The notes: generated by a model not told the origin, from the sequence alone. A stretch of DNA of 34,821 nt from a virus (IMGVR_UViG_3300022685_000010:1-34821), one strand, 5' to 3'. Shown: positions 5,730 to 32,479, counted from the first letter of the stretch. Translations and numbers: made by a program.

Positions 5730-6965
5730 GTGGTACAGAAGCGTAAGGTCAAGCGATTCGGGCCGGGGAACCGGCAATTCACTGTGGTTGAGGAAGGCGC
5801 AACGCTGGGCGCCCGCATTGGCGTGAACGTGTTTTGGCCTGATGGCCGGCTGGTGACTGAGGAAGAATTGCGGTCATTGGGTGGCGCCGGCGGTGAAGGT
5901 GAAGCTGGCCCGAAGGGTGACAAAGGCGACCCTGGCGCGGATGGCGCGGACGGAGCGGATGGCGCAGACGGTGCAGATGGCTCACCTGGCCCGACAGCGG
6001 TATCGACTGACGCTAATAATCTTGCAGAGCTTGGCACGGATAGCCTGCTTTTGGTTGAACATCCAGGAAGCGATGACGAGTATTATGTTCTTCGTAACGG
6101 GCTATTTACCCGTGAAAGCACTGTGTTTGTTGATAGCGATGACCCTGTAGATACTCCAGAAAATGGTGTTCGTGTTGGGGATATATGGATTCAACAACCA
6201 GCGCTCGGCTGGCTGATTGGCACGGATGGCACGGATTACGGCTATGATTCGTCCACGCCGCCACCAGGAACGCTGCTGAATAACCTGCTTGGGTACTGGA
6301 AACTTGACGAGGCATCCGGGACAAGGGCCGACTCGCAAGGCTCTAACGACATGAATGCCAGCAATGTAGCAGTCAGTTCAACGCCTGGAATTATAAGCAA
6401 TGCCGCAGACTTCGATGGATCAGCCGCCACTGACTTGCGAACAGGTGTAAACACAGGACTGGACTTTGCAAGCAGTTACAGCGTGAATTGCTGGGTGAAT
6501 TTTAATTCGCTGTCGGGTTTTCCCGTCCCTTGGAACAGAGCAAACGGTGGCGCGGGCAACCAGCCTTCTAATTCAGCGCTTACCTATGTAAGCACATCGG
6601 GTCGACTGGTTACCTTGCTGTGCAACGGTTCATCATTTAGCGGCGAGGTTGGCGGCACGACAGGAACGGTTCTTTCCACTGGCACTGACTATATGTTCAC
6701 CAGCGTTGTAGAGGATATTGGTGGCGGTCAGGTTCGTGTTACCAACTATTTAAACGGTGTGCAGGATGCGCAAAGCGCGTTTAACTGGACGCTGTACGAC
6801 AATGACGCTTTGTTCAATTTCAAGCTGGGTCGTTACCATAGCCTAAGCAATCGCAAAATGAACGGATGGGTGGACGAGGTTGGTTTCTGGCAGCGGGCGC
6901 TGACCACCACGGAAATTACGGACCTGTACAACGGCGGCGCAGGACTAAGTTACGATGACTTTTAG
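5730..6965 (+). CDS. Tail fibre-like protein: collagen repeats plus LamG-type lectin domain
   Basis: The gene starts at GTG, with GGAG 7 bases upstream. Of 411 residues, the first 50 form a small head-like region, residues about 57-88 are Gly-X-Y collagen-like (GPKGDKGDPGADGAD and so on), and residues about 185-411 form a concanavalin/LamG-type beta sandwich. That sandwich is marked by LLGYWKLDEASGT at the start and GWVDEVGFWQRALTTTEI near the end, a classical LamG C-terminal signature. Collagen stalks with terminal lectins are typical of receptor-binding fibres or head decorations. Its position just after terminase, far from the other tail genes, is unusual. It probably trimerises and binds surface glycans (inference). 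Confidence 0.75.
   Translation: MVQKRKVKRFGPGNRQFTVVEEGATLGARIGVNVFWPDGRLVTEEELRSLGGAGGEGEAGPKGDKGDPGADGADGADGADGADGSPGPTAVSTDANNLAELGTDSLLLVEHPGSDDEYYVLRNGLFTRESTVFVDSDDPVDTPENGVRVGDIWIQQPALGWLIGTDGTDYGYDSSTPPPGTLLNNLLGYWKLDEASGTRADSQGSNDMNASNVAVSSTPGIISNAADFDGSAATDLRTGVNTGLDFASSYSVNCWVNFNSLSGFPVPWNRANGGAGNQPSNSALTYVSTSGRLVTLLCNGSSFSGEVGGTTGTVLSTGTDYMFTSVVEDIGGGQVRVTNYLNGVQDAQSAFNWTLYDNDALFNFKLGRYHSLSNRKMNGWVDEVGFWQRALTTTEITDLYNGGAGLSYDDF
5934..5978 (+). repeat. Five tandem 9-bp units encoding Gly-Ala-Asp
   Basis: Five in-frame copies of a GGN-GCN-GAY unit encode the collagen-like core of the fibre gene. The copies differ only at synonymous positions, so the peptide is conserved while the DNA has drifted. 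The unit number could vary between relatives by slippage. Confidence 0.75.
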
Positions 6966-15753: not shown

Positions 15754-16710
15754 ATGCCTGGTGGCACTAACGGCCCCCCGATTTACACCGGGGCTCCCTA
15801 TCAACACAAATCCTCTACCCTTCTGGCGTTACGCAATCGGTTGATGATTCGGCTGAATTTTTCCGCGCAGTTGCTTGCGCCGCCGCCGGGCATGACCGAA
15901 TTGCTGAACGATTTTCTCTACGATGCTCAGGTTGATCTGTATCGTAGACCAGGCCACCCTGATCGCATCAAGCGGTGGTGGTCAATCCCGATCATTGCCG
16001 GCGAGCGGCATTATGACGTTCCCTCAATCACCACGAACTTCCGCACCGATTTGGCGTTCACCGCCGATGCGGGAGGCGATTTTGTGCAGCGCGCGGCGGG
16101 CGATTTTCAGGCCGAAGGGTTCAAGGCAGGCCAGATCATCACCATTGCTGGCGGGGCCAATGACGGCACGAAAATGACAATTGCTGCGGTTGCTACAGAC
16201 CAGCTTACGTTTGTTGAGCAAAGCGTCCTGACAACGGCAGCAGCAGGCCCAAGCGTTGCCGTGTCCACTGTGAACTACATAAGCCTGTATGAGAAAAAGA
16301 TTGACCATCTGATGCTCCAGCAGGACACGCAGTGGTGGGAAATGAAAGAAGGCATTGATCCGATGCGGTACAACCAAACATCTGCCTCAATCCCGCAATG
16401 CTACGAATGGACGGACACGCTGGAAATCTGGCCGGCGCCGGATGAAAACTACACGGTGTGGATCTATGGTGTTTTTGGCCTGCTTCCGTTCCAGGCTGAT
16501 ACTGATGTGACCACCATTGACCCTGACATGGTGTTCAATCTTGCGCTCGCGCTTGCGAAGGCGCATTACGGTCAGCAGGATGCTCAGGTGTATTTCCGCA
16601 AAGCAGAGGTTGCATTGAATCAGGTGGTGAAAGAAGGCCACGGCAACCAGAGATACATTCCTGACCCAAGGCCGCAGGGGCGCAATATTCCGAGGCCGCA
16701 GCAAGTCTGA
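15754..16710 (+). CDS. Head-to-tail adaptor (T7 gp11-like tail tubular protein A)
   Basis: This 318-residue adaptor protein docks on the portal and carries the nozzle. The helical N-part (about 20-75, TELLNDFLYDAQVDLYRR) and the C-part with the W-rich motif QQDTQWWEMKEGIDPMRYN and YGQQDAQVYFRKAEVALNQ fit the T7 gp11/P22 gp4-type adaptor family. Residues about 95-172 look like an inserted beta-rich domain (FKAGQIITIAGGANDGTKM then TDQLTF) between those parts. GGGAG lies 7 bases before the ATG. The stop overlaps the next start (TGATG), consistent with coupled adaptor and nozzle synthesis. Confidence 0.78.
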   Translation: MPGGTNGPPIYTGAPYQHKSSTLLALRNRLMIRLNFSAQLLAPPPGMTELLNDFLYDAQVDLYRRPGHPDRIKRWWSIPIIAGERHYDVPSITTNFRTDLAFTADAGGDFVQRAAGDFQAEGFKAGQIITIAGGANDGTKMTIAAVATDQLTFVEQSVLTTAAAGPSVAVSTVNYISLYEKKIDHLMLQQDTQWWEMKEGIDPMRYNQTSASIPQCYEWTDTLEIWPAPDENYTVWIYGVFGLLPFQADTDVTTIDPDMVFNLALALAKAHYGQQDAQVYFRKAEVALNQVVKEGHGNQRYIPDPRPQGRNIPRPQQV

Positions 16711-17489
16711 TGCGCTCAGTCAGCCTCACAACCAACAACGCAGGCATGACGCGCTTGCGGCGAAAGGGCAATGCCAGTCCGGGAACGCTGTACGACTGTC
16801 TCAACGCCTATATCACCATGTCAGGCACTATCAAGCCGCGCCCTGGTACACGCCTGCACAAGCAGTTGCCGGAAGGCACGTGCGGGCTTGTCGCGCACAA
16901 TGGCAAGCTGGTGGTATTCACCAGCACCCCGATTGTGGACGATGATGAGCGGTACAGCTATGTGCTGGTCAAGCATCCCATTACGCCCTCACTGAAGGCC
17001 ACAGAGTGTCATTTCGCGCAGCCTTTCATGGGCTACATTTACGCTGTCATTGAATTTGAGGACAGCCAGTATTTCCATTTCTGGATTGAGGAAGTGGACG
17101 CATGGGAGGCTGGAAAGATTTACCCAGAGGGTACGGCTGTTCTCCCGACAGCCCCAAATGGATTCCGATACGTTGCTGAACGCTCATCGCTGAATTATCC
17201 GCTGTGGGCGCCAAACGTGGCGCGGCAGGTAGGCGAGAACGTCGAGCCAACGGTTTCCAACGGATTTTTCTATCAAGTCATTGCGGTAACAGGCGATACG
17301 CCGCGCAGTGGCGGTACGGAGCCTGTGTGGCCTACTGTTGAGGGCGGCACAGTTATCGAGTCTCAGTCCGTCACTTATCAGGCTGTGCCGCCAGATACGA
17401 CTCCAGGCCCAGGTGCTGGAGAAGGCCCAGAGGGGCCGCGTTATGAAAACCCGAACTTTGGCCGCAATGCTGATGGAATTGAGCAATGA
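16710..17489 (+). CDS. Tail nozzle protein, N-terminal part (T7 gp12-like, split)
   Basis: This 259-residue protein has, at residues about 1-130, the start of nozzle proteins: a basic N-terminus, KPRPGTRLHKQLPEGTCGLV, then beta strands typical of the propeller. From about 131 the sequence changes to modules: AWEAGKIYPEGTAV and, at about 196-226, a GTEPVWPTVEGGTV-type unit found twice more in the following protein. It ends in a Pro/Gly-rich tail and an ATGA overlap with the next gene. Alone it is too short to be a nozzle (T7 gp12 is about 790 residues), so it probably acts together with the next cistrons. Confidence 0.7.
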   Translation: MRSVSLTTNNAGMTRLRRKGNASPGTLYDCLNAYITMSGTIKPRPGTRLHKQLPEGTCGLVAHNGKLVVFTSTPIVDDDERYSYVLVKHPITPSLKATECHFAQPFMGYIYAVIEFEDSQYFHFWIEEVDAWEAGKIYPEGTAVLPTAPNGFRYVAERSSLNYPLWAPNVARQVGENVEPTVSNGFFYQVIAVTGDTPRSGGTEPVWPTVEGGTVIESQSVTYQAVPPDTTPGPGAGEGPEGPRYENPNFGRNADGIEQ

Positions 17490-19237
17490 GTGTTGCTCTT
17501 TGGCAACCCAGCACCGACTATGCGTTGGGTGCAATTGTCCAGCCGACCGCTGTGCCGGAGAACGAATCCACGCCGATCACGGATGGCGGGTTTGAATCCG
17601 GCGGTGGTGATTGGACGTATAGCGGCGCAGCCGTTGTTGTTGGTGATTCGGCTGGTGCGTTTGAAGGCGATAATTACGTCAAAATGTCGCCAAACCAAAC
17701 TGGCGGCATTGCAAAGGTAGAGTCATCTTTTCTGGACGTTGAGCCGGCGCGGGGGTTCATCGCACAATGTTACTTTGACCCGCGCACCAATCCAGCAGCA
17801 AAAGGTCAGCTCCAGGCATATTTTGTCGATGCGAGCGATAATTTTGTTGCGACCCTGAAAAGCACCTTTGCATTTGGTGACGGCACTGCCGGATACCGAA
17901 AGATCGTGCTGCTTGTGCAGGTTCCTGCCAGCGCGGCGAAGGTCAAATTCATTGGTCAAGCCGAACACGATACGGGCGAAAGTGCCTTTGATTCGTTTTC
18001 GTGGAATTACACCACCACAGCAACCGGCGCGCCGCTAGGGCTGCTTTTTGAGGCTACCACGGGCGGCAAGAGCGGACTGGAAGAACCTGCGTGGCCCGAT
18101 ACAGTCAGCGCCACGGTAACGGACGGCACGGTTGAGTGGACGGCGGTACAGGCTGACACGGTGACATGGGAAGCCCGTGCGCTGCTTAAATCGGGCGATA
18201 CTGAGCCGTCATGGCCTACCGTTCCCGGTCAGATCATTCAGGACGGCACAATGCAATGGCGTTGCGAGTCGCAGGCCATTACGGATCGGAATTGCCCTCA
18301 GACCAAAGAGGTTGCAATTGGCGCCAGCAAGATATTCGCCGGCGATAATGATGTGGTGCGTTTCAGCGCAACGCTTGATCCGCGCGACTGGTCTACGCCG
18401 GAAGATGCTGGGTTCTTGCCGACCGGATTGCAGCAGGAAGGGCAGGTTGGCGTTACGGCTATGGGCAACTACCGTGGCAATCTGGTTGTCTGGAACCAAT
18501 CGTCTGTGCAGGTGTGGCAGATCGACCCTGACCCCGTAGCAATGGCCTTGCTGGATTCAATGAACGGCATTGGTAGCGCTCACCACAAGGCTGCGGAGCC
18601 TGTGTCAAACGACCTGTTCTTCCTGGCGGCGCTTGGTGTTCGCACGGTGGGTATCGCCGTTGGCGCTGAAAACCTTGCGGCTGGGGATGCTGGACTGCCG
18701 ATTGATGTGCTGGTGCAGCCGGAGGTCAATCAGACCATCGACCCCATTGCTACCTATTACCCTTCGTTCGGCCAGTATTGGCTGACGTTCCCGACCAAAT
18801 CAAATGGGCGCCCAGGGGTGTTTCCTGAAACCCCAACTGCGCCCGACCCTGGCGAGTATCAATTCAGCACGATGCAATATCCGTATGTGCTGACGGAGGG
18901 AATTGAAAGCAGCAATAGCCTCAAATCGGGCTGGGTGTTTGGCCTTGATGTTCCTGAGCTTGATGCCACGCACTCGCTGCAAAGCGGTTCGCTTCTGGAT
19001 GTGGTTGGGTACAAAGATTACACAGAGGTTCCTGAGCTTGATGGAACACACAGCCTTGAAAGCGGTACACTTGAAACGGTTGTTGGGTACAAAGATTACA
19101 CAGAGGTTCCTGAGCTTGATGGAACACACTCGCTGCAAAGCGGGGATTTGGTTGTATCAGTGCAATATATTGATTATGACGTAGACGAGGCTATCGAAAG
19201 TAGCCATTCATTGCAGAGCGGGACACTTGCCGCGTAG
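17486..19237 (+). CDS. Tail nozzle protein, middle part with lectin-like and repeat insertions
   Basis: Of 583 residues, 1-25 form a WQPSTDYALGAIV module and about 31-175 a carbohydrate-binding jelly-roll-like region (ITDGGFESGGGDWTYSG). Two GxTEPxWPT modules follow (about 192-222 and 231-262), then the conserved nozzle core at about 270-436 (VAIGASKIFAGDNDVVRFS, LDPRDWSTPE, IGSAHHKAAEPVSNDLFFLA, QYWLTF). Last come five HSLQSG-type repeats (about 472-583). In relatives the core would be followed directly by the nozzle C-terminus, which here lies in the separate gene at 21740. ATGA coupling to the preceding gene supports co-assembly. Confidence 0.75.
   Translation: MSVALWQPSTDYALGAIVQPTAVPENESTPITDGGFESGGGDWTYSGAAVVVGDSAGAFEGDNYVKMSPNQTGGIAKVESSFLDVEPARGFIAQCYFDPRTNPAAKGQLQAYFVDASDNFVATLKSTFAFGDGTAGYRKIVLLVQVPASAAKVKFIGQAEHDTGESAFDSFSWNYTTTATGAPLGLLFEATTGGKSGLEEPAWPDTVSATVTDGTVEWTAVQADTVTWEARALLKSGDTEPSWPTVPGQIIQDGTMQWRCESQAITDRNCPQTKEVAIGASKIFAGDNDVVRFSATLDPRDWSTPEDAGFLPTGLQQEGQVGVTAMGNYRGNLVVWNQSSVQVWQIDPDPVAMALLDSMNGIGSAHHKAAEPVSNDLFFLAALGVRTVGIAVGAENLAAGDAGLPIDVLVQPEVNQTIDPIATYYPSFGQYWLTFPTKSNGRPGVFPETPTAPDPGEYQFSTMQYPYVLTEGIESSNSLKSGWVFGLDVPELDATHSLQSGSLLDVVGYKDYTEVPELDGTHSLESGTLETVVGYKDYTEVPELDGTHSLQSGDLVVSVQYIDYDVDEAIESSHSLQSGTLAA
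18950..19183 (+). repeat. Three tandem 78-bp repeats (26-residue units)
   Basis: In-frame units start at 18950, 19028 and 19106, each beginning GTTCCTGAGCTTGAT. Positions 19004-19051 and 19082-19129 are identical over 48 bases. Degenerate extra units lie on both sides (peptides ESSNSLKSG and ESSHSLQSG). The units encode VPELDxTHSLxSG then a GYKDYTE linker. Recent duplication or conversion is indicated by the exact identity. Confidence 0.85.
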
Positions 19238-19246
19238 GAGTCAGAA

Positions 19247-20233
19247 ATGAGCATTAACAAAGCACCGGCCATTTGGGTTCCGAGCCGCCGGCCAATTGTC
19301 TTAAATGGGAATGTCAGTGGCCGCATGGAGGGCCGCTATAAATTTACTGTGCGCCGACCTGATGGCGAGGTTCGCCTTGAAACGGGGTGGTCAAAAAACC
19401 TGATTACCAACACAGGCATGGACAACTTTGCCAAAACGAGTGATTGGGATCGTTACTGCTATGTGGGCACGGGCAACACCGCGCCGGCAAATACAGACAC
19501 TTCACTTACCACCCCGGTTGTTGGTGGGGTGACCGACACCACGACAGGGCCGGATACGCGGGATCATGTGTTTGACGGAACCGAAGGCTACCATCGCTTG
19601 ATTCGCACCTTTCGATTTGACATTGGTGATGCAGAGGGTGTTCTCGCGGAAGTTGGTGTCGGCCCAACGGCCAGTACGTTGACCAGCCGGTCACTCATCA
19701 CGGATGGAGGCGGTACGCCGACCACAATTACTGTGCTGTCGGATGAAATTCTTGATGTGACCTACGAGTTTCGTGTATGGCACGGGCAAGATACGGCAAC
19801 GACTTCAACAATCACCCTTGATTCGGTGCTGTACAACACCACGCTCAGATGGCTGCAAGTTGCTTCAACGCCCGACCCTGGTGTCACTAATATTTGGGAT
19901 GTTCGCAGAACGGGCGCCACGCCCGGTGTGGGGGCAAGAGACACAACGCCGCCGACAAACTGGACGGACAACTGGACGGGAGCGTCGTCACCCGCAGAAA
20001 CCGCCACAAAAGCGGCTTATGTTGATGGCAATCACTATCAGGATTTTGCCTGCGTGTGGGATTACACGCGGGCGAATTACACCGATGGCATCAAGGGCAT
20101 TTATTTCTCTCATGACTGGAATTTAGCCAGCATGGCTTTTGAAAATGATGCTGACAATACGAAGGGAATCCTGAAAGACAACACGCAGGAATTGACCCTG
20201 AACTGGCGATGGAGTTGGGCGCGCAAGGCATAA
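19247..20233 (+). CDS. Tail structural protein (fibre-like), inserted in the nozzle region
   Basis: This 328-residue protein has an N-terminus (RMEGRYKFTVRRPDGEVRLE, then TGWSKNLITNTGMDNFA) resembling the conserved opening of many phage tail and fibre-attachment proteins. The rest is beta-rich and Thr/Asp-rich, ending ELTLNWRWSWARKA, a strand-like end typical of assembly domains. AGGAG lies 6 bases before the ATG. It sits between the nozzle's middle and C-terminal cistrons, so it probably belongs to the tail tip or fibre ring. Exact family not assigned. Confidence 0.65.
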   Translation: MSINKAPAIWVPSRRPIVLNGNVSGRMEGRYKFTVRRPDGEVRLETGWSKNLITNTGMDNFAKTSDWDRYCYVGTGNTAPANTDTSLTTPVVGGVTDTTTGPDTRDHVFDGTEGYHRLIRTFRFDIGDAEGVLAEVGVGPTASTLTSRSLITDGGGTPTTITVLSDEILDVTYEFRVWHGQDTATTSTITLDSVLYNTTLRWLQVASTPDPGVTNIWDVRRTGATPGVGARDTTPPTNWTDNWTGASSPAETATKAAYVDGNHYQDFACVWDYTRANYTDGIKGIYFSHDWNLASMAFENDADNTKGILKDNTQELTLNWRWSWARKA

Positions 20234-20234
20234 C

Positions 20235-21740
20235 ATGGCGATACCCCTTAACAGGCTGTCATCGTTTCCGGTAATCAGTGATTTTCTGGAGCCGTATGAC
20301 AAAGAAACTGAGTTTCTGACAGACTGGCAGAGGGGTGGCCGTGCGCTGCAAGACCCGAGCGAGGGGCTGGATGTCCAGAACTGGCAAGTGAGCCTGAGCG
20401 GCAGCGATGTGGTAATTACTCCAGAAACGATTGGGAGCCCAACTACGGCATTCACTGCATCTGGAGAGATCACAGAACTGAGCCTGGCTTTTGACCAGAA
20501 TATGCGCCCGTTTATTGCGTTTGTCGAGGATGAGGTTGCCAAGTATTACTGGTATAACCCCATCACTCAGACCAACAGCATTGAGGAAATAGCAGAGGGT
20601 GCTACGTCACCGCGCTGTGTTCTTGATGACGTTCGCAGCACACAGAACGACAACAGCCGAATCATTTTGGCGTACAACCGTGATGGGAATCTGAACTATC
20701 GGTCACAGGAAGATCGGTACGAAACCGAGTATGTTTTGACTGCGGCGCCCTCGCGCCTCTTGAAGATCGGTATGGGTGTAAACAACCGGCTGCAATTCCT
20801 GTTTGAAAACCCGAACAACATTGTTGTTCCAGGCCCGACTAACCCGCCGGAAATCACCATTCCGTATTGGGAAAGCACGGCTGGCGGCTTTATTGATCTG
20901 GACTTGGCTACTGAAAAGACATTCCTTGAGGTGTTTGGTCAAGCGTTTGGTAATGATGATGAGATCAATGAGGTTGTCACCATTTCTGAGGACAGCGGCA
21001 CTACGCCATGGAAGGTAAGAATCGACACTACGGATGGCGGCAATCTCATCCAGATCAGGGATTCTGTGGGAACGGCCCTGGCCGGAAATCTTTTCCTTGT
21101 TCGTGATAACGGTGTTGTGTTCTCGTCCCTTTCGTGGGTGGCAGGCGCTTCCGCCACGGATGAAATGAGCTTTCCGACGCGAACGCCGCTTTGGCTGGTC
21201 ATGGCTTCGGACACGGACGAACTGGTAATTCGCAAACGCGATATTTCGCCCGCCAATCCAGAACAGCCGCCGGTTCAGCCGCCCGGCGGGGGTGGCAATG
21301 ACCCAACGGACGTTACTGGCGCCGTTTCGTGGAGTTCGTTTTTTGGCGTAGCAGACCCTTTCAATGGCGGGCCTGGAAGCATCGGCAATCAGGTCAAACA
21401 GATTCCCGCCGGCGGCATTTCTGTGTGGTTCCAAGTACCCGACAGCCCGCCAAACAAATCGGTGAATTTTTTGGCAATTACCACCACGGGATCGGCGGGC
21501 CGGCCTTCGGTGTCATTGAATACGAAGGTGCAGAATTACAGCGAGCCCGTAGTCAACAATGGAACGCAGCCGACATTCGTGACAGGAAGAACGGATGGGT
21601 ACACAAACCCGACTACGCCGCCAAGCAGGACATTGGTTCTTGAAGCTGGGCGCAAGTACATCTGGAACATCAAGATGAGTGAAACTGGCCCCAATGGCGT
21701 GAATTGGGTAATCCTCAACTACTCAACGAGGACTCAGTAA
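20235..21740 (+). CDS. Tail structural protein, propeller-like
   Basis: This 501-residue protein has, at about 70-200, the pattern of a phage tail beta-propeller-like protein: ITELSLAFDQNMRPFIAFVE, KYYWYNPITQ, SPRCVLDDVRSTQNDNSRI, ILAYNRDGNLNYRSQEDRYE. Residues about 340-362 are a Pro/Gly linker (QPPVQPPGGGGND), and a C-terminal beta domain follows. AAGG lies 6 bases before the ATG, and TAATG overlaps the next start. It lies with the previous gene inside the apparent gap of the nozzle protein. A structural role in the tail is likely; specific function unknown. Confidence 0.65.
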   Translation: MAIPLNRLSSFPVISDFLEPYDKETEFLTDWQRGGRALQDPSEGLDVQNWQVSLSGSDVVITPETIGSPTTAFTASGEITELSLAFDQNMRPFIAFVEDEVAKYYWYNPITQTNSIEEIAEGATSPRCVLDDVRSTQNDNSRIILAYNRDGNLNYRSQEDRYETEYVLTAAPSRLLKIGMGVNNRLQFLFENPNNIVVPGPTNPPEITIPYWESTAGGFIDLDLATEKTFLEVFGQAFGNDDEINEVVTISEDSGTTPWKVRIDTTDGGNLIQIRDSVGTALAGNLFLVRDNGVVFSSLSWVAGASATDEMSFPTRTPLWLVMASDTDELVIRKRDISPANPEQPPVQPPGGGGNDPTDVTGAVSWSSFFGVADPFNGGPGSIGNQVKQIPAGGISVWFQVPDSPPNKSVNFLAITTTGSAGRPSVSLNTKVQNYSEPVVNNGTQPTFVTGRTDGYTNPTTPPSRTLVLEAGRKYIWNIKMSETGPNGVNWVILNYSTRTQ

Positions 21741-22222
21741 TGGCTCAGAATGATGTTTTCGTTTACACCATGAACCAGGGCGGTACGCGCGGCAAGTGGT
21801 CGCGCTATCGCTGGGACTTCGTTATCAAGTATTTTGCGCACCTTGAGGACACGCTGTATATCCGCACTGGTGATCGCGTCTACGAGGTCATTGAATACGA
21901 GCTTTATGATGACGGTGTGCCGTTTATTTCTGTGCTGCAATGGCCGTGGCTGGATTGGGGTCAGTCCGCAGTCACAAAAATGCTGACGGGTTTCGACCTT
22001 GCAGGCGAAGGTACGGTTGAGGTTGAGATTGGCTATGACCAGAATAGCCTGGACGCGTTCACGCCGAAATTTGAACTTCCCGGAGACACTTACACGGGCA
22101 GTCTTGTGCCTGTGCCTGTTGCGGCGCCAACATTCTCAATGCGTTTGACGTATCGAAGTGAAACAAATTGGGAATGGAACGCCACGAATCTTTACGTCCA
22201 AGACCATAGGCCGGGCAAATGA
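21740..22222 (+). CDS. Tail nozzle protein, C-terminal part (separate cistron)
   Basis: This 160-residue protein corresponds to the usual last domain of nozzle (T7 gp12/P22-type stabilisation) proteins: VFVYTMNQGGTRGKWSRYRW, VLQWPWLDWGQSAVTKML, GEGTVEVEIGYDQN, FELPGDTYTG, and a final SMRLTYRSETNWEWNA then LYVQD. In relatives this sequence directly continues the core that here ends near residue 436 of the 17486-19237 product. It starts at its own ATG with GAGGA 7 bases upstream, overlapping the preceding stop (TAATG). An in-frame extension 36 bases upstream is not supported. Confidence 0.75.
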   Translation: MAQNDVFVYTMNQGGTRGKWSRYRWDFVIKYFAHLEDTLYIRTGDRVYEVIEYELYDDGVPFISVLQWPWLDWGQSAVTKMLTGFDLAGEGTVEVEIGYDQNSLDAFTPKFELPGDTYTGSLVPVPVAAPTFSMRLTYRSETNWEWNATNLYVQDHRPGK

Positions 22223-22713
22223 GTTGTTTTCTGACCGAAAATGTCACGCTTTTTGACTTGCTTTGGCTGTGCAGTCGTGCGCGTGAAGATGAGATTGTGC
22301 AATACGAGGCGCTTGTTGGCCCGTGGAACCCTGATGTGGCCGCAAACGAATTCTGGATGAATCGAGGCCCGAAGTTTGCCGTCATTGATGAAGAAGGGCC
22401 GGTTGTAGCGGGAGGGTGGTCGCCCATCATTGATGGCGTTTATCAGTCGTGGATGGTGGGCCGCGAGGGCGGCTGGGATAAGCGGTGGCGCTCAATCACA
22501 AAGTATTCGCGCAGAGTGATGGATGCGATGCTTGATAAAGATGGCGGTATTGCCCGGCGGCTACAGACTTCCGCGAGTGAGTCGCGGAGCCTGGCCTGCA
22601 AGTGGTACGAGAAGGGTTTGCGCATGAAATACGAGGGTCGTTTTGAAAATTTCGGGCTCAATGGTGAGGCTATGGTAAATTATGCACTGACGAAGGAGCA
22701 GAACAATGGGTAG
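22219..22713 (+). CDS. GNAT-fold virion protein (T7 gp13-like position)
   Basis: This 164-residue protein has a GNAT acetyltransferase-like order of elements: FAVIDEEGPVVAGGW strands, then IARRLQTSASESRSLACKWYEKGLRMKYEGR, matching the end of GNAT-like proteins that sit beside the ejection genes in many podoviruses (the T7 gp13 position). Clear acetyl-CoA-binding residues (R/QxxGxG/A) are not seen, so catalysis is doubtful and a structural or assembly role is likely. ATGA overlap with the previous gene; 8-base overlap with the next. Confidence 0.65.
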   Translation: MSCFLTENVTLFDLLWLCSRAREDEIVQYEALVGPWNPDVAANEFWMNRGPKFAVIDEEGPVVAGGWSPIIDGVYQSWMVGREGGWDKRWRSITKYSRRVMDAMLDKDGGIARRLQTSASESRSLACKWYEKGLRMKYEGRFENFGLNGEAMVNYALTKEQNNG

Positions 22714-23990: not shown

Positions 23991-24917
23991 ATGAGTCAGT
24001 TTCAGGGAGTCAAGCAATTAGCGTTTAACGTGGGCTCGCGGCCTGCGCGTGACCAGCTTATCCAGCAGGGTGAGCAGCGGCGCATCATTGCCGCGCAGAA
24101 CCAGATGGCTTCCCTGGACAAGCGAATGGCTGATGCTGCGATGGCGAATCGCCAGAACAAGTTTCATGAGCAGCTTGCGGGTATGCTTGATCCGTCAGAC
24201 CCGCTATCGGCTGCAATCATGGCTGAATTGACCGGCGAAATGAAAAACGCTGAAAGCACTCGTGGAATCATGCAGCAGAATGAGGCGCGGCAGGGCGCGC
24301 TTGACATGATTGGCCCTGATGGACCGTCCAGCACGGATGCTTTTAATGCGCTGATCGGCGTTGGCTCTGACAAGATGCTTGGCGTTGGCAATGTTCGTAC
24401 TGATGACCAGGCAGACGCGACCGTGGAATACAAGCAAGCGCAAGCGGCTGAACGGAAGGCAGCGGCAGAAAAAGCACTGCGCACTGATCCAACTACAGGG
24501 CGGGCGCCTAAGAAAATGTCGGACAGCACAATTCAGCAGTTTTTCGGGATGCAATACCCAGCAGGCACAAATCCTCAGGTTGTGGCCGAAAGGATTGGTG
24601 ACTTCTATGCGTTCGCTGGTGACATGGCGTTGCAAGACCCGAAATACAGCAATGACCGGATCGCGTTTGCTGAGTACATGAAGCAGTATCCGCAAGGCGG
24701 CTACAACGCTGACAAAGCTGCGGCTGTCGTGGCTGATTCAGCTACCGGCCCAGCGCCAGAGTCCGCGGCGCCGGCGGCTTCATGGCCGGTCATTGAGGGC
24801 CGGGATGGAAAGAGCCCGGAAACGGCGTACCGGATGGACGATTTCAGTGATGATAACCCGCCGCCAAGCGGTTCCGTCTTTGTGGCCCCTGATGGCCGCA
24901 TTATGGTGATGCCGTGA
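23991..24917 (+). CDS. Internal virion (ejection) protein
   Basis: This 308-residue protein has helical, Gln/Met/Ala-rich sequence in its first 170 residues (AQNQMASLDKRMADAAMANR), and a more globular region with QFFGMQYPAGTNPQVVAERI and DRIAFAEYMKQYPQGGY. A Pro/Ala-rich linker and a small C-terminal part follow, with SWPVIEGRDGKSPETAYR and PPSGSVFVAPDGRI, a short module seen in phage structural proteins. It lies in the usual T7 gp15 position and overlaps the giant gene by GTGA. No strong ribosome site; coupling to the previous gene, 2 bases away, is likely. Function inferred from context. Confidence 0.65.
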   Translation: MSQFQGVKQLAFNVGSRPARDQLIQQGEQRRIIAAQNQMASLDKRMADAAMANRQNKFHEQLAGMLDPSDPLSAAIMAELTGEMKNAESTRGIMQQNEARQGALDMIGPDGPSSTDAFNALIGVGSDKMLGVGNVRTDDQADATVEYKQAQAAERKAAAEKALRTDPTTGRAPKKMSDSTIQQFFGMQYPAGTNPQVVAERIGDFYAFAGDMALQDPKYSNDRIAFAEYMKQYPQGGYNADKAAAVVADSATGPAPESAAPAASWPVIEGRDGKSPETAYRMDDFSDDNPPPSGSVFVAPDGRIMVMP

Positions 24918-27900
24918 GTTGGAAGGATCAACTCGTTCCGTTAGATCAGCCTGAGCAAGCAGCAGAGCCGAAGCCGCAACAAAGCTGGCGCGACCAACTG
25001 GTTCCGCTTGATGCTGCGCCGGAACCGACTGCGCCCGCGCAAAGGCCACCGGAGGCTGGTGTTCTTCAAAATGTTGTTGATGCCGGCACAAAAACCAAAG
25101 GCGCGGTTGCGAACCTCATGGCGCTTGGGTTTGATGCACTTTCGCCTGATGCGCGGCCTGATGATGTTTCGTGGATTGATGAGGCGCTGGCCGGCACTGC
25201 GTCCACGATAGGTGGCTTTACTGGCATTGATGCAATAAAAGCGTTTGGCGATGACAAAGGCGCAGATATTGCCATGTCTTACGCCAACGAGGAGCTACGC
25301 AGGCGCGCACAAGGGATGCCTGGAATTGCCGAGGAAAATCTTGGCAAATGGGGAAACCTTGCGGCAGAGTCCGTTATTGCAGCACAAGATGAACGCGCTG
25401 ATCGCGCCCTGAGTGATGAGCAAAAATGGCTCGATCAGCAGCTAGGCGAATCAATAAAGGGCGGCGCAAAAACTACAGCCCAATTCCTTTGGGACAACCC
25501 CGGTCAGATTGCTCAGCTTGGCGTTGAGTCAATTCCCTATATGCTTCCGGCGGCTGGTATCGGCAGACTGGCAGGGGTGTTTGGCAAGGGCGCTGGCATT
25601 GCTGGTTCCGTGCTTAGCGAAACGCAGATGGCGGCAATGCTTTCTCGCCAGGGCGTTGAGCAGATGATTGACGGACTGCCGGATAAAGAGCTTGCAAAAA
25701 CCGAAGCCTATCAAGTGGCGCTTGAGCAAACAGGCGACCCAGCAGCCGCGCGCGCTCTCATGCGGTCAATGGCAGGCAATGCAGCGTTTGGCACGGGCTT
25801 TGTGACCAACTTGCTCACGCTTGGCGCCTCACAGGCCGCAGGCGCTAACGTAGTCCAAGACGTTCTTGCTGGTGTCGCCAAGAAAGGCAAAGGCGGCGTC
25901 ATTGCAAGGACAGGGAAGGGCGCGGCAAAAGAGGTAACGCAAGAGGCCATACAAGAGCCCGGCGACCAGCTTGCCGAAAATGTTGGCGCAGTCGTTGCTG
26001 GCGAAAAAACTCCAGATCAGGCACTTGAGGGGCTTGCAGGCGCGTCCGTGGTTGGCGGGGCAGCAGCAGCCGGCCCCGGTGCTTTGGCCGGATTGGCTCA
26101 GGGAAAAGAGCCCGAAACACCCGAGCCAGCGCCCCCGGAGCCGGAGCCTACGCAAGACGAGATTGATGCCGAGATTGAGCGCTTGCTGGAAGAACAGCGC
26201 GCCGCAGAGCAGGCAGAAGCAGAGCAATCAGCAGCAGAGCAGGCCGCAGCGGCAGTCATTCCTCAAATGGAAACGCCCGCACAGCCCGCACAGCAGGCCG
26301 CAGCAGCCGTCGATCCGGTTAACCTTGCTGATACGCTGGGTTCCATCCTTGCAGGCGAGCAGGATGCACCAGCGCAGCCAGAGCCGGCGGTTGAGCCAGA
26401 ACCAGAACCTATTGAGCCGTTTGTCCCAGCGAACGAGGCCGAGCAGGCTGTTGTTGATGGGTGGACGCAAGAGGTTATGCAAGCTAGTGAGGCTAGGTTA
26501 ATCGCTCTTGAGGGAGAAGGCGTACAGGTTCGTGATGAAACAGGCGCGCTACTCCCGCGCGAGCAGATCGCGCAGAACTTCGCAAACCATTTTCAGGACA
26601 TGGTTGGCGAGCAGGTAGCAATGAACGAGGAGGCTGCACAAGAACCGGAGCCAGAGGCCGAAGCAGCGCCGGAGCCAGGTGTTACTGTCGGCAAGGTAGT
26701 CCGTGACGGTAAGCGTGTCGAGATTGACCCGCGCCTGAAACGTGCCGAGTATCGTGAGCCGCTTGCTGCCATGCTTGACGAGTTGGTTCCTGGGGGTGGT
26801 ATTTCTGTGGCTCCAGCAGCAGGAGCCGAAAGCCGAAGGCGCTCAGACGGGAGTGTAATGCAGGATTATGAGGACACAATCAGGACACCTTCCGTAAACC
26901 CTGATTGGTTCAAGAACAACGATCAAGGCTTTACGGTTGCTCAAGCGAAAAACGCTGTTGAGGCCGCGCTTGAAGGTCGCAACATGGGTGTGCGCCAAGA
27001 AGAATTCGTCATGGGTTTGATTGAAATAATCCGTGATAACAGGACGGGCGCCGACCCGCGCACCGGCGAACCCGCCTATGACACATGGCAAGACATGCTG
27101 CGTGACTTCCGCGAACAGCGCGACCAAGCAAAAGCGCGTGAGTTTGGGAACCTTGAGGGGTGGATGCCGGAATATCTGGAAGAATCCAACGAGGTCTACA
27201 ATCAGGCATACGAGGAATATATCAATGAGCAAATTGCCGAACAATCTGAAACAGCAAATCCGCGAGCAGGCACGGAAAGACGCGAAAGCAGAACACGCGA
27301 AACGAATGAAATCACGCCAGAGCCAACAGCCGAAGAAATCAACCGAGCCGAAGAAAAACGGCGTGATGGCGAGCGGGACGGGTTAGGTCGTGATGAGGTA
27401 ACGCCTGACCAGGGCGAGGGTGAATTATTCGCCGGCAATACGCCCGGACAGCGCCCAGAGCAGGGTGATGTGTTTGATGCCAATTCATCATCTGCAACCC
27501 AGCGTGAGCCGGCCACGGACGCACAGAAGCAGGAAATGCGCCGAATCATTGCGGAGCGGTTCCCTGAGTACGCTGATCGAATTGTGTACAAGCCGCGATT
27601 TGAAGGCGCCAAGAAAGGCTTTAAGTTTGCTGAGTATGATCGAGCAAACAAGCAAGTCATTGTTTACGAAGATTATGCGGGCCTCATGAATGAGGGCGCA
27701 CTGGTATGGCTGATTAATCATGAACTATTCCACGGCGGGCTTGATACGGCGTTCAAGCAACAGCGCATACAGGTTCTTCAAGCGGCGGCGAAAAACCCGA
27801 CTATTAGCGACCTGGCCCAGAGAATTGCACAAAAGAGAAGGGAGCCTTTCAATGAACTGGAACACACCGAAGAAGCTATTGTCGAGCTTGCTACAGCGAA

Positions 27901-30900
27901 TGAGATCAATCGACTGGAAAGGCTTGGTCGCCTATATCAAGGGTTTGTGGCGCCGGCTAGTCTCACTGGTGAAACCCAAAGCCTGATTGGCCGTTGGCTG
28001 GACACCATGCGGAACATCATGGATTCGCTGATAAACCGCGCGTCCCCAATGACCGATGGTGAAATACTGAATGTCATCCGCGTGGCTCGCGGCGGTATGC
28101 AGGAATTGGCTTCCGATACGCAACCAGCGCAGGGCCGAAACAGACTGGTCAGCGATGAAGCCAAAGCCCGCGCCGATGCAAAACTGAAATCCGGCTTGAC
28201 CAAACTCAACAGCGGCGTTGATCCTGAGTTGTGGGCGGCGATGGCCGTGAAGGCTGCGTGGCACATTGAGAACGGTGCGCGTGACTTTGCTGATTTCTCA
28301 AAGCGTATGCTGGAAGAATTTGGCGATGTTGTGCAGCCGCATCTTGATGAACTGTGGTCGCGCGGAAGGAATTACCTTGCAGGCAGGCAAGCCGCAGAGG
28401 ATGGCGAGGCAGGCGGCACTACAACGAGCCTGCAAAACCGAGTCATCAATCAGCGCCGTGAGCAGCGCGGAGAGGAACCCCTAAGCACCCCGGACAGTCG
28501 CACATGGGAAGAAGCCCTTGCCTGGGCAGAGGCGCGGGTGGCGCAAAACCCGAACGTGGTACAAGAAATTCTGGAGCGCATTGGCACTGAGCCTGATCCG
28601 CAGTTGTCTGACCGTGATAGCGCCATATTGCTGTACCGGATGCAGCAGATTCAGAATCAGCTTGCAGACTTGGATGCGCGCGTTGAAAACAGCGTGTACG
28701 CACAGCGCGAGGCAGCAGCCCTACAGGCAGAGCTATACGAGCTTGAGGTGGCAAGCCGGCAGATTGGTACGGCCACGGGCCGGGCGCTGGCGTTCCGCAA
28801 GGCAATTTTGAATAAGGAATTCACGCTTGAGCGCATGGAGCAGCGAGCCCGTGCCGATCTTGGGCGCCCGCTGAATAAAGCAGAGCGGGCAACGCTCAAG
28901 GCACGGGCTGAGAAGATCAAGGACTTTGACAAAGAGATTGATGAAAGCGAGAAGCGCGGCGAGAAGCGACAAAAGACGCGCGCTCAGTCAATCATTGATC
29001 TTATGAAGGCTGATCGGGAGAAGGTCAAAAAAGCCGCACCGAAACAGAAGCGAAAGAGCAAAGGCCCGTCTGTTCGATCCCGTTTGGACAACCGTACCCA
29101 GGAGCAGATAAATCGCGGCAAGCGAAACCTGAAAGCAGCCCAGAAAGAACTGATGAAGGCGATGGGCATGGATGGTATCAACACCAGCCTGGTGCTTGGT
29201 GTTGGCTTGCCCAAATTTCCCGAAGGCAATCCCCTGAAAGACCCGAAAGCCTACAAATCAATGGCGAAGATTGCTGGCGCGCTGGTGGACATAGGTTTTT
29301 GGCGGTCAGCACAGTTTGCAACGGAACTGGCCGGCGCGGTTGGCGACAAAATATTCTCACGCCTGCGTAGTGAGGACATTGAGCATTTGCGCGAGCAGGC
29401 CATTCAGGACGCAGAGGAGGAGGCGTTTTATCTTGACCCTGAAAGCAGCGATGAAGTCTTGCGGGAAGTTGCCACAATGGCGTTTGCAGGCGACGAAATC
29501 AGCAGCCGGTTCGTGTACCGACTGGCGCGAGCGTTCATGGAAGAAGGACTCCAGGGCGAAGATGCAATTATGGGGGCCGTGCATAAAGCACTTCAAGAAA
29601 TTAGGCCGGACATAACCGAGCGCGATGTGCGCCGTGCTTTTGTTGAGTACGGAAAAGCCAAGTACCCGTCACAAGAAGAAGTGGCGCGCGACCTGCGGGA
29701 AATGCGAACCCTGGTGCGGCTGCAAGAGTCCATTGACCGGCTTGCGGAGGACAAACTGCCGAAGCGCACGGGTATGCAGCGTGATGAGGCCACAGCGGCT
29801 ATCAGGGAGCGCCAGAAGCTACTCAACAACATGCGGAAGGAGTTTGATGCCCGCAACCCTGAGCAGGCCAGCAGGGACAGCCTGAGAGGCATGAATGAGG
29901 CGCGCTTGAAGCGGCTCCAGAACCGCATTGCTGAACTTGAGCGTCAAATCGAAACGGGCGAGAAGCCTATTCGTCCAACACCGCCGGAAGATACGCCTGA
30001 AATTGTTGAGGCCAAAGAGCAGATTGAGATTTTGCAGGCTGAGATTCAGCGTATGGAGGATGAGGCGAACCCGCCGAAAACGGATGAGCAGATCCAATTT
30101 GAGCGCCTGGAGCAAACGAAAAACCAGCTTGATCTGGTGCTTCAAAACCGACAGGCAGCAGAGCGCACAAAGGAATTTGAGCCTTTGTCGGAGCGCAATG
30201 CCGATCTGAAAAGCGAGATTGACCAGCTACGCAAGCAGGTGGCGCAGATGCGCCGTGAAATGAAGAAGGGGCCGAAGGCAGACCGTGAGGCGCGGCGTGA
30301 GCAGAAAATCATCAATGATCTGGTCAAGGCCATTGATATGTACGAAGAACGCCTTGACAACGGTGACTTTTCGCCAATCTTCGACAACAGCCCGAAGCCA
30401 GTGACGGAAAAAGTCGCTGCGCTACGCAAACTGCGCGACCAGCGAGCAGCGGTCTACCAGGCCATGAAGCGCGCGCAAAAGCCGGTGCTGACCCGTGAGG
30501 AACGCATTAACCGCATCCGGCAGGCGAACCTGCAACGCCAGATCGACGAGTATCGGCGCCGGTACAAGGAAAAGGATTTTTCCGAGCCCGAAAAGCCGGC
30601 CACGGTCATTGACGATGAGAAAACGGCCAAGCTGCGGTATGAGCGCGACCGTGAGAAGCAGCGTTACCTGGATGATTTGATTAAGTGGCGCGTGAAGGAA
30701 ATGAACGCCTTTAAGCGGTTCATGATCTATATTGGCGAGTCATTCAACTTCACGCGAGCGGTGATTACATCGTTCGACTTTAGTGCTGCGCTTCGGCAGG
30801 GCGGGGTTATCGTGCTGAGTCGCCCGATTCGTTCAGCAAAAGCCTTTGCGCCGATGTTCCGAGCAGCTTTCAGCAATCAGAAAAACCATGAAATCCTGCG

Positions 30901-32479
30901 TGGCATTGAAACGCGCCCAAATGCGCGATTCTACAAGCAGGCGGGCCTGTATCTGGCTGACATGGAAACTGCGGAACTGAGCAAGCAGGAAGAAAAATAT
31001 ATGTCGCGGTTTGCCACAAAGCAGGTGGAAATCAATGGCATTGATATTAACCCTGTGGGTGCTTCTGCGCGGGCTTACAGCACGTTCCTGAACGTACTGA
31101 GGGCTGATGCCTTCGATGCTTTACTGGATACGCTCACGGCGAACGGTAAGGCCACAGCGGAGGAAATGGAGGCCATTGCAAACTTCGTGAACGTAGCAAC
31201 AGGGCGCGGGGTAATTGGCAAGCCGTCATGGTCACAGATTCATTCTGATGCAGCCAAAGCTGGTGGGCCGCTTCTTGCAACGGTGTTTTTTGCACCGAAA
31301 TACGTTGCCTCACGGTTCAACTTTCTTGCGGGCCAGCCGATTTATCGGGCGCCCACGAAGCGGATGCAGAAAATGATCGTGCAGGAATACGCCCGGTACT
31401 TCGCCGGCGTTTCCACGGTTCTTGGGCTTGTCGCAATGGCGGCGATGGCGCTTCGTGATGAAGATGATGAGGAGCCGCTGATTAACGTTGACCCGCGCAG
31501 CACCGACTTCCTGAAAGTGCGCTTTGGCGATACCCGCTTGGATTTGTTCAGCGGCTTGCTCCAGCCTACGGTGTTTATAGCTCGCCTAGCTACAGGCACG
31601 AAAGTCAACAGCAAGGGCGAGGTTCAGGCGTTGCGCGATAACCCGTGGGGAAGTGACCTTGAAAAGGATTACGGCTCCGGCGGCGCCTTTGGTGAGATCA
31701 CCCGATTCTTACGGTCAAAGCTCGCGCCGATTCCAGGGTCAATAATCAATCTACAGCAGGGCGAAAACGTCATAGGCCAGCCGACCGACCTGCCCAAAGA
31801 ACTGCAAAGCCTAATGTTCCCGCTGACGTTCGCGGATGCCGGCGACCTTTACAAAGAGCAGGGCGTAGTTGGCGGCACGATCATGACCGGCGCTGTCATC
31901 TTCGGTGTTGGCGCCGCAACCTATGGTGATGGCGGCTGGTCGCACAAGCATGGCGAGATTCAAATGGCGCTTGATAAATTTCGTGAGGACTTTGCTGCGG
32001 CTGAAACCGACCAGGAGCGCATGGATGTCTGGATGAAGGCGAAGGCCGATCATCCGTGGCTTCTGAGCGAAGGCAATCTCAAGCGATATGCAGACGCGCC
32101 GGCCAATCGTGGCAGGTACGACAGCAAGACGGGTGAGTTTGTGCCGTACCGTGTGGGCCAGCCTGTTGTCAACAAAAAGACAGGCAAGCCTACATTGGTC
32201 GATCTGCCAGAATGGGCGCGCCGTAGCCCGCGGGATGGATCGCCGCGCAGCATTGTTCGCAAGGCCGCGCGGGAAGTCTATCAGCAGGCCACGTTTGAGG
32301 ACTTGTCGCCGGCAGCAGAGTACAGCGAAACGCTGCGCGAATTGCTGACAGAAAAAAACCCCGACGATTTGCCGGGGTCGTTTGAAAGAAGGGCGATTCT
32401 CAAAGAACTGGAAGATGCCGAAAAGGCAATCAAGCTGGAAGAACTTGAGCAGATGCGCCAGGCCGAGCGAGGTGGCTAG
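24914..32479 (+). CDS. Giant internal virion / large polyvalent-type protein with HELFH motif
   Basis: This 2521-residue protein starts at GTG, overlapping the previous stop (GTGA). Regions: a duplicated decapeptide SWKDQLVPLD/SWRDQLVPLD at 2-11 and 24-33; hydrophobic segments about 199-225 and 285-330; an acidic Pro/Gln linker about 396-510; a zinc-peptidase-like HELFH at 936-940; and a module WHIENGARDFADFSKRM about 1103-1139 of a kind repeated in phage polyvalent proteins, with a weaker second copy near 1447-1480. Long coiled coils span about 1663-1883, and a C-terminal domain about 1930-2343 has hydrophobic spans near 2162 and 2317. It occupies the T7 gp16 position, so it is probably ejected into the cell. 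Predicted peptidase activity is unproven. Confidence 0.8.
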   Translation: MSWKDQLVPLDQPEQAAEPKPQQSWRDQLVPLDAAPEPTAPAQRPPEAGVLQNVVDAGTKTKGAVANLMALGFDALSPDARPDDVSWIDEALAGTASTIGGFTGIDAIKAFGDDKGADIAMSYANEELRRRAQGMPGIAEENLGKWGNLAAESVIAAQDERADRALSDEQKWLDQQLGESIKGGAKTTAQFLWDNPGQIAQLGVESIPYMLPAAGIGRLAGVFGKGAGIAGSVLSETQMAAMLSRQGVEQMIDGLPDKELAKTEAYQVALEQTGDPAAARALMRSMAGNAAFGTGFVTNLLTLGASQAAGANVVQDVLAGVAKKGKGGVIARTGKGAAKEVTQEAIQEPGDQLAENVGAVVAGEKTPDQALEGLAGASVVGGAAAAGPGALAGLAQGKEPETPEPAPPEPEPTQDEIDAEIERLLEEQRAAEQAEAEQSAAEQAAAAVIPQMETPAQPAQQAAAAVDPVNLADTLGSILAGEQDAPAQPEPAVEPEPEPIEPFVPANEAEQAVVDGWTQEVMQASEARLIALEGEGVQVRDETGALLPREQIAQNFANHFQDMVGEQVAMNEEAAQEPEPEAEAAPEPGVTVGKVVRDGKRVEIDPRLKRAEYREPLAAMLDELVPGGGISVAPAAGAESRRRSDGSVMQDYEDTIRTPSVNPDWFKNNDQGFTVAQAKNAVEAALEGRNMGVRQEEFVMGLIEIIRDNRTGADPRTGEPAYDTWQDMLRDFREQRDQAKAREFGNLEGWMPEYLEESNEVYNQAYEEYINEQIAEQSETANPRAGTERRESRTRETNEITPEPTAEEINRAEEKRRDGERDGLGRDEVTPDQGEGELFAGNTPGQRPEQGDVFDANSSSATQREPATDAQKQEMRRIIAERFPEYADRIVYKPRFEGAKKGFKFAEYDRANKQVIVYEDYAGLMNEGALVWLINHELFHGGLDTAFKQQRIQVLQAAAKNPTISDLAQRIAQKRREPFNELEHTEEAIVELATANEINRLERLGRLYQGFVAPASLTGETQSLIGRWLDTMRNIMDSLINRASPMTDGEILNVIRVARGGMQELASDTQPAQGRNRLVSDEAKARADAKLKSGLTKLNSGVDPELWAAMAVKAAWHIENGARDFADFSKRMLEEFGDVVQPHLDELWSRGRNYLAGRQAAEDGEAGGTTTSLQNRVINQRREQRGEEPLSTPDSRTWEEALAWAEARVAQNPNVVQEILERIGTEPDPQLSDRDSAILLYRMQQIQNQLADLDARVENSVYAQREAAALQAELYELEVASRQIGTATGRALAFRKAILNKEFTLERMEQRARADLGRPLNKAERATLKARAEKIKDFDKEIDESEKRGEKRQKTRAQSIIDLMKADREKVKKAAPKQKRKSKGPSVRSRLDNRTQEQINRGKRNLKAAQKELMKAMGMDGINTSLVLGVGLPKFPEGNPLKDPKAYKSMAKIAGALVDIGFWRSAQFATELAGAVGDKIFSRLRSEDIEHLREQAIQDAEEEAFYLDPESSDEVLREVATMAFAGDEISSRFVYRLARAFMEEGLQGEDAIMGAVHKALQEIRPDITERDVRRAFVEYGKAKYPSQEEVARDLREMRTLVRLQESIDRLAEDKLPKRTGMQRDEATAAIRERQKLLNNMRKEFDARNPEQASRDSLRGMNEARLKRLQNRIAELERQIETGEKPIRPTPPEDTPEIVEAKEQIEILQAEIQRMEDEANPPKTDEQIQFERLEQTKNQLDLVLQNRQAAERTKEFEPLSERNADLKSEIDQLRKQVAQMRREMKKGPKADREARREQKIINDLVKAIDMYEERLDNGDFSPIFDNSPKPVTEKVAALRKLRDQRAAVYQAMKRAQKPVLTREERINRIRQANLQRQIDEYRRRYKEKDFSEPEKPATVIDDEKTAKLRYERDREKQRYLDDLIKWRVKEMNAFKRFMIYIGESFNFTRAVITSFDFSAALRQGGVIVLSRPIRSAKAFAPMFRAAFSNQKNHEILRGIETRPNARFYKQAGLYLADMETAELSKQEEKYMSRFATKQVEINGIDINPVGASARAYSTFLNVLRADAFDALLDTLTANGKATAEEMEAIANFVNVATGRGVIGKPSWSQIHSDAAKAGGPLLATVFFAPKYVASRFNFLAGQPIYRAPTKRMQKMIVQEYARYFAGVSTVLGLVAMAAMALRDEDDEEPLINVDPRSTDFLKVRFGDTRLDLFSGLLQPTVFIARLATGTKVNSKGEVQALRDNPWGSDLEKDYGSGGAFGEITRFLRSKLAPIPGSIINLQQGENVIGQPTDLPKELQSLMFPLTFADAGDLYKEQGVVGGTIMTGAVIFGVGAATYGDGGWSHKHGEIQMALDKFREDFAAAETDQERMDVWMKAKADHPWLLSEGNLKRYADAPANRGRYDSKTGEFVPYRVGQPVVNKKTGKPTLVDLPEWARRSPRDGSPRSIVRKAAREVYQQATFEDLSPAAEYSETLRELLTEKNPDDLPGSFERRAILKELEDAEKAIKLEELEQMRQAERGG
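32352..32378 (-). terminator. Intrinsic terminator for the recT operon, antisense inside the giant gene
   Basis: On the minus strand, ACCCCG (32378-32373) and CGGGGT (32363-32358) pair around a 9-base loop, followed by TTTTTT. It lies about 100 bases past the recT stop, within the coding sequence for the C-terminus of the giant protein. On the plus strand there is no T-run after the hairpin, so it stops only leftward transcripts. Confidence 0.7.

Follow-up and report, generated by a model that had tools for sequence, protein, structure and literature searches.

The 34,821-base IMG/VR viral record IMGVR_UViG_3300022685_000010:1-34821 (the window; positions count from its first letter) probably encodes a podoviral tail nozzle in three cistrons with coupled translation, whose products would rebuild the nozzle non-covalently and whose second break would be a plug-in site for receptor-binding modules. 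In hhalign profile comparisons, the product of the N-terminal cistron matches residues 20–136 of the nozzle of Rhizobium phage RHph_N65 (P 95.2, E 2.8e-8), residues 280–436 of the core cistron match residues 258–421 (P 97.9, E 3.6e-13), and the product of the C-terminal cistron matches residues 421–565 (P 97.2, E 3.6e-11). The three matches are collinear and non-overlapping, so the pieces correspond to one nozzle cut twice; as judged by profile similarity, the window products are its N-terminal, middle and C-terminal parts. A first-pass annotation of the window had proposed such a split nozzle. Its three open reading frames (ORFs) are all present, at 16710–17489, 17486–19237 and 21740–22222.

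Identification of the three cistrons as one nozzle

A tblastn search with the core cistron finds the single-chain nozzles of two named phages, RHph_N65 and Microcystis phage Mae-Yong1326-1, the latter annotated as 'packaged DNA stabilization protein'. The window thus shares with the nozzle class both homology to annotated nozzle or stabilisation proteins and a gene position directly after the head-tail adaptor. A single continuous polypeptide, which is usual for the class but perhaps not obligatory, is replaced in the window by three cistrons. Among 50,697 phage records, the N- and C-terminal cistrons have no tblastn relatives except for one match to a repeat resembling carbohydrate-binding modules (CBMs), and the only match in a DNA-level search of phages is Piffle, at 2%. 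The assignment is a gain for annotation, since the N- and C-terminal pieces otherwise lack an informative match in database family searches.

Two database labels touch on this family. The RHph_N65 nozzle (locus L006, 3251–5014) carries the label '6-phosphogluconate dehydrogenase protein', which is apparently wrong. Weak matches at collinear positions link the family phrog_5107, named 'amidase' (lysis), to the single-chain nozzle of Mae-Yong1326-1 (L005, 6569–7966) and to the third chain of locus L003 (12298–12777); it may be a mislabelled nozzle family.

The genes from 15754 through 22222 are co-directional and tightly packed. The features of the locus are:

15754–16710, + strand: head-tail adaptor (SU10-adaptor-like), directly 5′ of the nozzle; Pfam PF24175 SU10_adaptor, E 1.3e-8, above cutoff
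16710–17489, + strand: nozzle chain 1, N-terminal nozzle part (about residues 1–130) and CBM-like repeats; profile match to RHph_N65, phrog_20658 repeat at residues 166–221
17486–17489, + strand: break 1, an ATGA start/stop overlap within the inserted CBM-like array; from the sequence and a survey of this junction in 80 split relatives
17486–19237, + strand: nozzle chain 2, the entire core cistron
17486–18271, + strand: chain 2 residues 1–262, inserted CBM16-like jelly roll and CBM-like repeats; from a model, CBM16 matches in locus L114, and phrog_20658
18272–18796, + strand: chain 2 residues 263–437, nozzle core (propeller blades); profile match to RHph_N65 258–421, 53–76% identity to relatives
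18899–19231, + strand: chain 2 residues 472–582, five ~26-residue HSLQSG repeats, a proposed fibre-docking tail; from a repeat hidden Markov model (HMM) and periodicity
19238–21739, + strand: break 2, the entire stretch inserted between the core and C-terminal cistrons; from comparison with 99 dereplicated loci
19247–20233, + strand: fibre cassette gene 1, phrog_4176 family (E 4.8e-59), probable fibre connector
20235–21740, + strand: fibre cassette gene 2, phrog_4950 N-terminal domain (E 4e-47 over residues 5–190) and variable C-terminal region
21740–22222, + strand: nozzle chain 3, C-terminal blade strands and platform; profile match to RHph_N65 421–565, 57% identical to the L003 chain
22219–22713, + strand: next gene and 3′ boundary, phrog_4177 / internal virion protein phrog_308

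The start of chain 1 is coupled to the preceding gene through TGATG at 16708–16712, chains 1 and 2 are coupled through ATGA at 17486–17489, and the start of chain 3 is coupled through GAGGA and TAATG at 21738–21742. The first cassette gene starts with an ATG at 19247 that is preceded by a ribosome site. The N/core junction of the window contains no slippery heptamer, and the split points are as clean and free of frameshift scars as the first-pass annotation had described them. In all three chains, differences are fewer at codon positions 1 and 2 than at position 3, where substitutions are near saturation. This pattern indicates that all three chains are constrained, as functional genes would be.

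Distribution of the two breaks among relatives

Relatives were found by conserved-peptide scans with C-terminal, N-terminal and core profiles, taking the best 80 loci per scan. Only loci containing all three parts were counted and those missing a part were left out; the counts are not population frequencies. The resulting 157 loci, window included, comprise 25 that are fully fused, 71 in which the N-terminal part is separate from a joined core and C-terminal part, and 61 with three cistrons; none joins the N-terminal part to the core and leaves the C-terminal part separate. Removal of near-copies at 95% left 99 loci. The whole nozzle is fused in 19 of these; the N-terminal part alone is separate, and no insert is present, in 41; five carry an in-chain insert of 241–1402 nucleotides, 20 have an insert joined to the core and a separate C-terminal part, and 14, including the window, carry the fibre cassette.

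Of the 99 loci, 80 have the N/core split and 34 the core/C split. All 34 of the latter contain an insertion of 444 nucleotides or more, and all 60 junctions of at most 52 nucleotides are continuous. The core/C break is thus strictly tied to inserted modules, which bears out the idea of a modular nozzle put forward in the first-pass annotation. In relatives, the site of break 2 is empty or holds an in-chain insert or the fibre cassette. The nearest relatives of the window, L002/L003 and L011, have other inserts at this junction. The split is shared by close relatives, and distant relatives are continuous; the three-cistron loci keep recognisable N-terminal, core and C-terminal parts in this order. 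Break 1, which is widespread and has no tie to fibres, and break 2, which is recurrent and always accompanied by an insert, have different histories.

A maximum-likelihood tree, calculated by a quick method with Shimodaira–Hasegawa-like approximate likelihood ratio test (SH-aLRT) support only and with long outgroup branches, requires at least 13 changes of the core/C state, six of the N/core state and five of the cassette; these counts carry no direction and may represent splitting or re-fusion. One set of near-identical nozzles contains loci with no insert (L027, L036), with an in-chain insert (L029, L039) and with a split (L037). In another, L051 and L056 carry the cassette and L071 an in-chain insert. 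Of L073 and L075, also joined by short branches, the former is split and the latter has no insert. The family provides a full series for studying the evolution of protein splitting, from fused nozzles through those with an in-chain insert to those split by an insert or by the cassette. Transfer of the cassette, as read from conflict between nozzle and cassette trees, was dropped; the window fibre genes are closest to those of the sister-clade member L014.

Some loci have further arrangements. L136 (4736–7531) and L138 (2177–4972) contain the N-terminal part, a jelly roll, and the joined core and C-terminal part in one frame, interrupted first by TAA and then by TAG. A Luteibacter strain, sp. 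SG786, has a single gene between the core and the C-terminal part. The C-terminal nozzle domain of L177 (5580–8657; a Rhizorhabdus metagenome-assembled genome) is matched in two parts and is apparently interrupted in-chain by about 400 residues.

Break 2 holds a mobile fibre pair

The two genes inserted at break 2 are a known mobile fibre pair, phrog_4176 and phrog_4950. Both families are called tail fibre protein, and their members in the window, like those in cassette-bearing relatives, are adjacent, with phrog_4176 preceding phrog_4950. The first-pass annotation had correctly placed two tail genes between the core and the C-terminus; they are, however, not arbitrary extras but this specific pair together with a companion repeat array. 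Relatives of the phrog_4176 gene were found in 91 phage records. The pair occurs in siphoviruses, Schitoviridae and Zobellviridae, and its first member was seen in phiKMV. Residues 201–501 of cassette gene 2 are 31% identical to the end of the insert in the fused core chain of L003.

The HSLQSG repeats, also noticed in the first-pass annotation, form an array of five ~26-residue units at the end of the core chain. Its self-offset score of 225 was reached in 0 of 500 shuffles, and the repeat HMM, built partly from those same units, matches chain 2 with an E of 4.3e-26. In every case examined, the protein encoded 5′ of the fibre genes ends in, or consists of, an array of ~24–26-residue repeats. 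Arrays of ~26 residues precede phrog_4176/phrog_4950-type genes in Pfeifenkraut, Piffle, Melvirus and phiKMV. Eleven arrays (from the window, six relatives and four other phages) are periodic, with 0 of 500 shuffles as high for each, and four control segments are unremarkable. In L128 the array is a separate ORF, and the order is core, repeats, phrog_4176, phrog_4950, C-terminal part.

Small stand-alone repeat-array ORFs are located before the phrog_4176 gene in L128 (2978–3391) and in L179 (4562–5002), where the ORF is phiKMV ORF39. ORF39, annotated as hypothetical, looks like such a repeat array.

Break 1 lies within a CBM-like insert

Residues 1–262 of the core cistron are an insert of CBM-like repeats and a jelly roll rather than nozzle. 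The assignment of this cistron to the nozzle in the first-pass annotation thus holds for residues 263–437 and fails for the region before them. The CBM-like array runs across break 1, as phrog_20658 repeats are present in both chain 1 and chain 2. CBM16 is among the nearest solved folds for the insert, as judged from the same region of L114. RHph_N65 has an insert of ~115 residues at the position of break 1.

Predicted structure of a single-chain relative

Locus L114 encodes the N-terminal, core and C-terminal parts as one natural chain of 826 residues, which was modelled with a predicted local distance difference test (pLDDT) score of 81 and a predicted template modelling (pTM) score of 0.64. 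Over residues 1–826, the model resembles the solved nozzles of Pa223 (Z 24.8), SU10 (Z 22.5–23.1) and P22 gp10 (Z 22.1). Further fold matches, again over the whole chain, are the phicrAss001 muzzle (Z ~21) and T7 gp12 (Z ~17). According to the model, L114 is a propeller-plus-platform nozzle of the P22 gp10/SU10 gp17/T7 gp12 class.

Break 2 corresponds in the L114 model to a tight hairpin turn between the neighbouring strands 654–661 and 664–671. Separate C-terminal chains start with a strand matching residues 664–671, the window version of which is MAQNDVFVYTMNQ. Break 1 is positioned in or beside a low-confidence linker, residues 222–234, within the inserted array.

Proposed assembly of the split nozzle

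For strand pairing, stoichiometry, non-covalent assembly and fibre docking we infer the following scheme. Junction 2 would be an exposed hairpin that tolerates insertion. Some inserted modules would stay in-chain, and others would bring a stop and a restart, after which the C-terminal part is translated from a separate, coupled cistron. The three chains would be produced in near-equal amounts and fold together, the blade being closed where the strand that opens chain 3 pairs with the last strand of the nozzle part of chain 2. The complete nozzle would contain six such trios. The repeat tail might hang from the blade edge and dock the phrog_4176/phrog_4950 fibre, resembling the SU10 fibre-dock loop with its short fibre; this docking is suggested by the position of the repeats. 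With the chain already open at this junction, receptor-binding modules could be swapped and the nozzle left undisturbed.

With somewhat less assurance than for the coupled cistrons and their plug-in site, we lean towards the view that this is a natural split β-propeller: a DNA-gating nozzle made from three chains, with one blade closed between two of them and a junction into which different receptor-binding modules can be plugged, among them a complete fibre cassette that long-tailed and N4-like phages also have. A search of an open-access library, which does not cover subscription papers, returned no account of a split nozzle. The solved nozzles matched here are single chains; in this family, the propeller that seals the channel would be divided, and a host-binding module is inserted where it is cut. 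If the proposal is true, short-tailed phages could swap their receptor-binding machinery while retaining the nozzle.

Some observations weigh against the assembly proposed above. The evidence for the nozzle fold comes from the relative L114 rather than from the window. The window core chain modelled alone has a pLDDT of ~30 in the nozzle core and ~80 in the CBM insert, which folds by itself; the low core value would agree with a need for chains 1 and 3, and a thin alignment is an equally simple cause. The HMM of the window repeat units does not match the repeats of Pfeifenkraut, Piffle or Melvirus. The units are too divergent across phage types to be covered by one profile, and the docking role therefore rests on position, length and periodicity. 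We regard the arrays of the different phage types as analogous and do not claim homology of their units.

Long fibres of SU10 and the fibres of T7 use adaptor docks, and the phrog_4176 gene of phiKMV does not adjoin a nozzle gene. Both points would suit an arrangement in which the nozzle is split but the fibre genes merely sit in the gap, the fibre being attached elsewhere in the tail, for example to the adaptor, and the repeat tail having a different role. We consider this unlikely, given that these genes follow a ~26-residue array in several phage types that are unrelated, that the array is here fused to the nozzle core, and that the core chain continues into the other inserts found at this junction. 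The N- and C-terminal chains, being separate genes, might also have taken on separate jobs outside the assembled nozzle, such as those of a chaperone or decoration protein. This is very improbable, as the complete fold of single-chain L114 requires both of these parts, the order of the parts is kept in the three-cistron loci (among those retaining all parts), and the codon-position pattern indicates constraint.

Recoding, by −1 frameshift or readthrough, would yield a continuous N-core protein and render the split only apparent. The core is in the −1 frame relative to the N-terminal part at 66 of the 80 N/core junctions, as a −1 frameshift requires; however, ATGA-type overlaps give the same frame relation without a frameshift. 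Slippery heptamers are present near only seven of the 80 junctions, where they are scattered, in ten relatives the N-terminal part and the core share a frame and are separated by TAA or TAG, and break 2 spans 2.5 kb of other genes, which makes recoding an extremely unlikely explanation. The window, a viral record, comes from assembled sequence data and not from an isolate, and the split could be attributed to an assembly or sequencing error or to a decaying nozzle gene. The comparison with related phages excludes error, as many independent contigs show this arrangement and a contig of a bacterial chromosome does as well. The chromosomal case, split locus L176 in a Luteibacter contig of 2.6 Mb, means that metagenome assembly cannot be the general cause. 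Together with the clean ORFs and overlaps and the constraint on all three chains, this recurrence leaves the error explanation a negligible probability. The nozzle rebuilt from three coupled chains remains our preferred reading, and the interpretation given in the first-pass annotation is partly supported overall.

Comparison with known nozzles

SU10 gp17 (Kuravirus; PDB 7z47/7z4b/7z4f) shares the nozzle fold over the whole of L114, and the window has an SU10-type adaptor 5′ of the nozzle. Extra domains are inserted between blades 2 and 3 of SU10 gp17, and the fibre dock loop of the SU10 propeller binds a fibre trimer with three tryptophans (PMC9509320). SU10 gp17 differs in being one chain with a short dock loop and a fibre gene outside the nozzle gene, whereas the window has three chains and fibre genes inside. 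A sequence-profile search against the PDB returned only a CBM above noise, with no nozzle match that would place break 2 on the SU10 dock loop at the level of residues.

P22 gp10 and the Pa223 nozzle (PDB 8eap and 9nwi) have folds similar to that of L114, and P22 gp10 is likewise located directly after the adaptor in the tail, beneath it; both are single chains of ~470–512 residues without window-type inserts. T7 gp12 is composed of a platform, a seven-bladed propeller and an inserted tip domain (PMC6702177). It resembles L114 more distantly in fold but is a single chain, and T7 fibres dock between adaptor and nozzle fibre docks (PMC6702177). RHph_N65 and Mae-Yong1326-1 are the closest named-phage relatives, with a shared neighbourhood of capsid, adaptor-like and acetyltransferase-like genes, but their nozzles are encoded by one continuous gene of 587 and 465 residues, respectively. 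Piffle, Pfeifenkraut and Melvirus have the same fibre families, in the same order and with a preceding repeat array; for phiKMV gp40, only the phrog_4176 match was seen. Unlike in the window, the fibre genes of these four phages follow other tail or core genes, and no nozzle piece comes after them in the records examined.

Other features of the window and of related loci

A single ORF of 2521 residues at 24914–32479 of the window has a DarB-like antirestriction match over residues 917–1395 (E 1.1e-15). The gene at 5730–6965, just 3′ of the terminase gene and far from the other fibre genes, matches collagen-like tail-fibre families and perhaps represents a second fibre system. The adaptors of some relatives are also unusual: that of L019 (3402–6800) has 1132 residues, with repeats that are Kelch-like by eye between adaptor-like parts, and those of L012 and L013 look partly duplicated.

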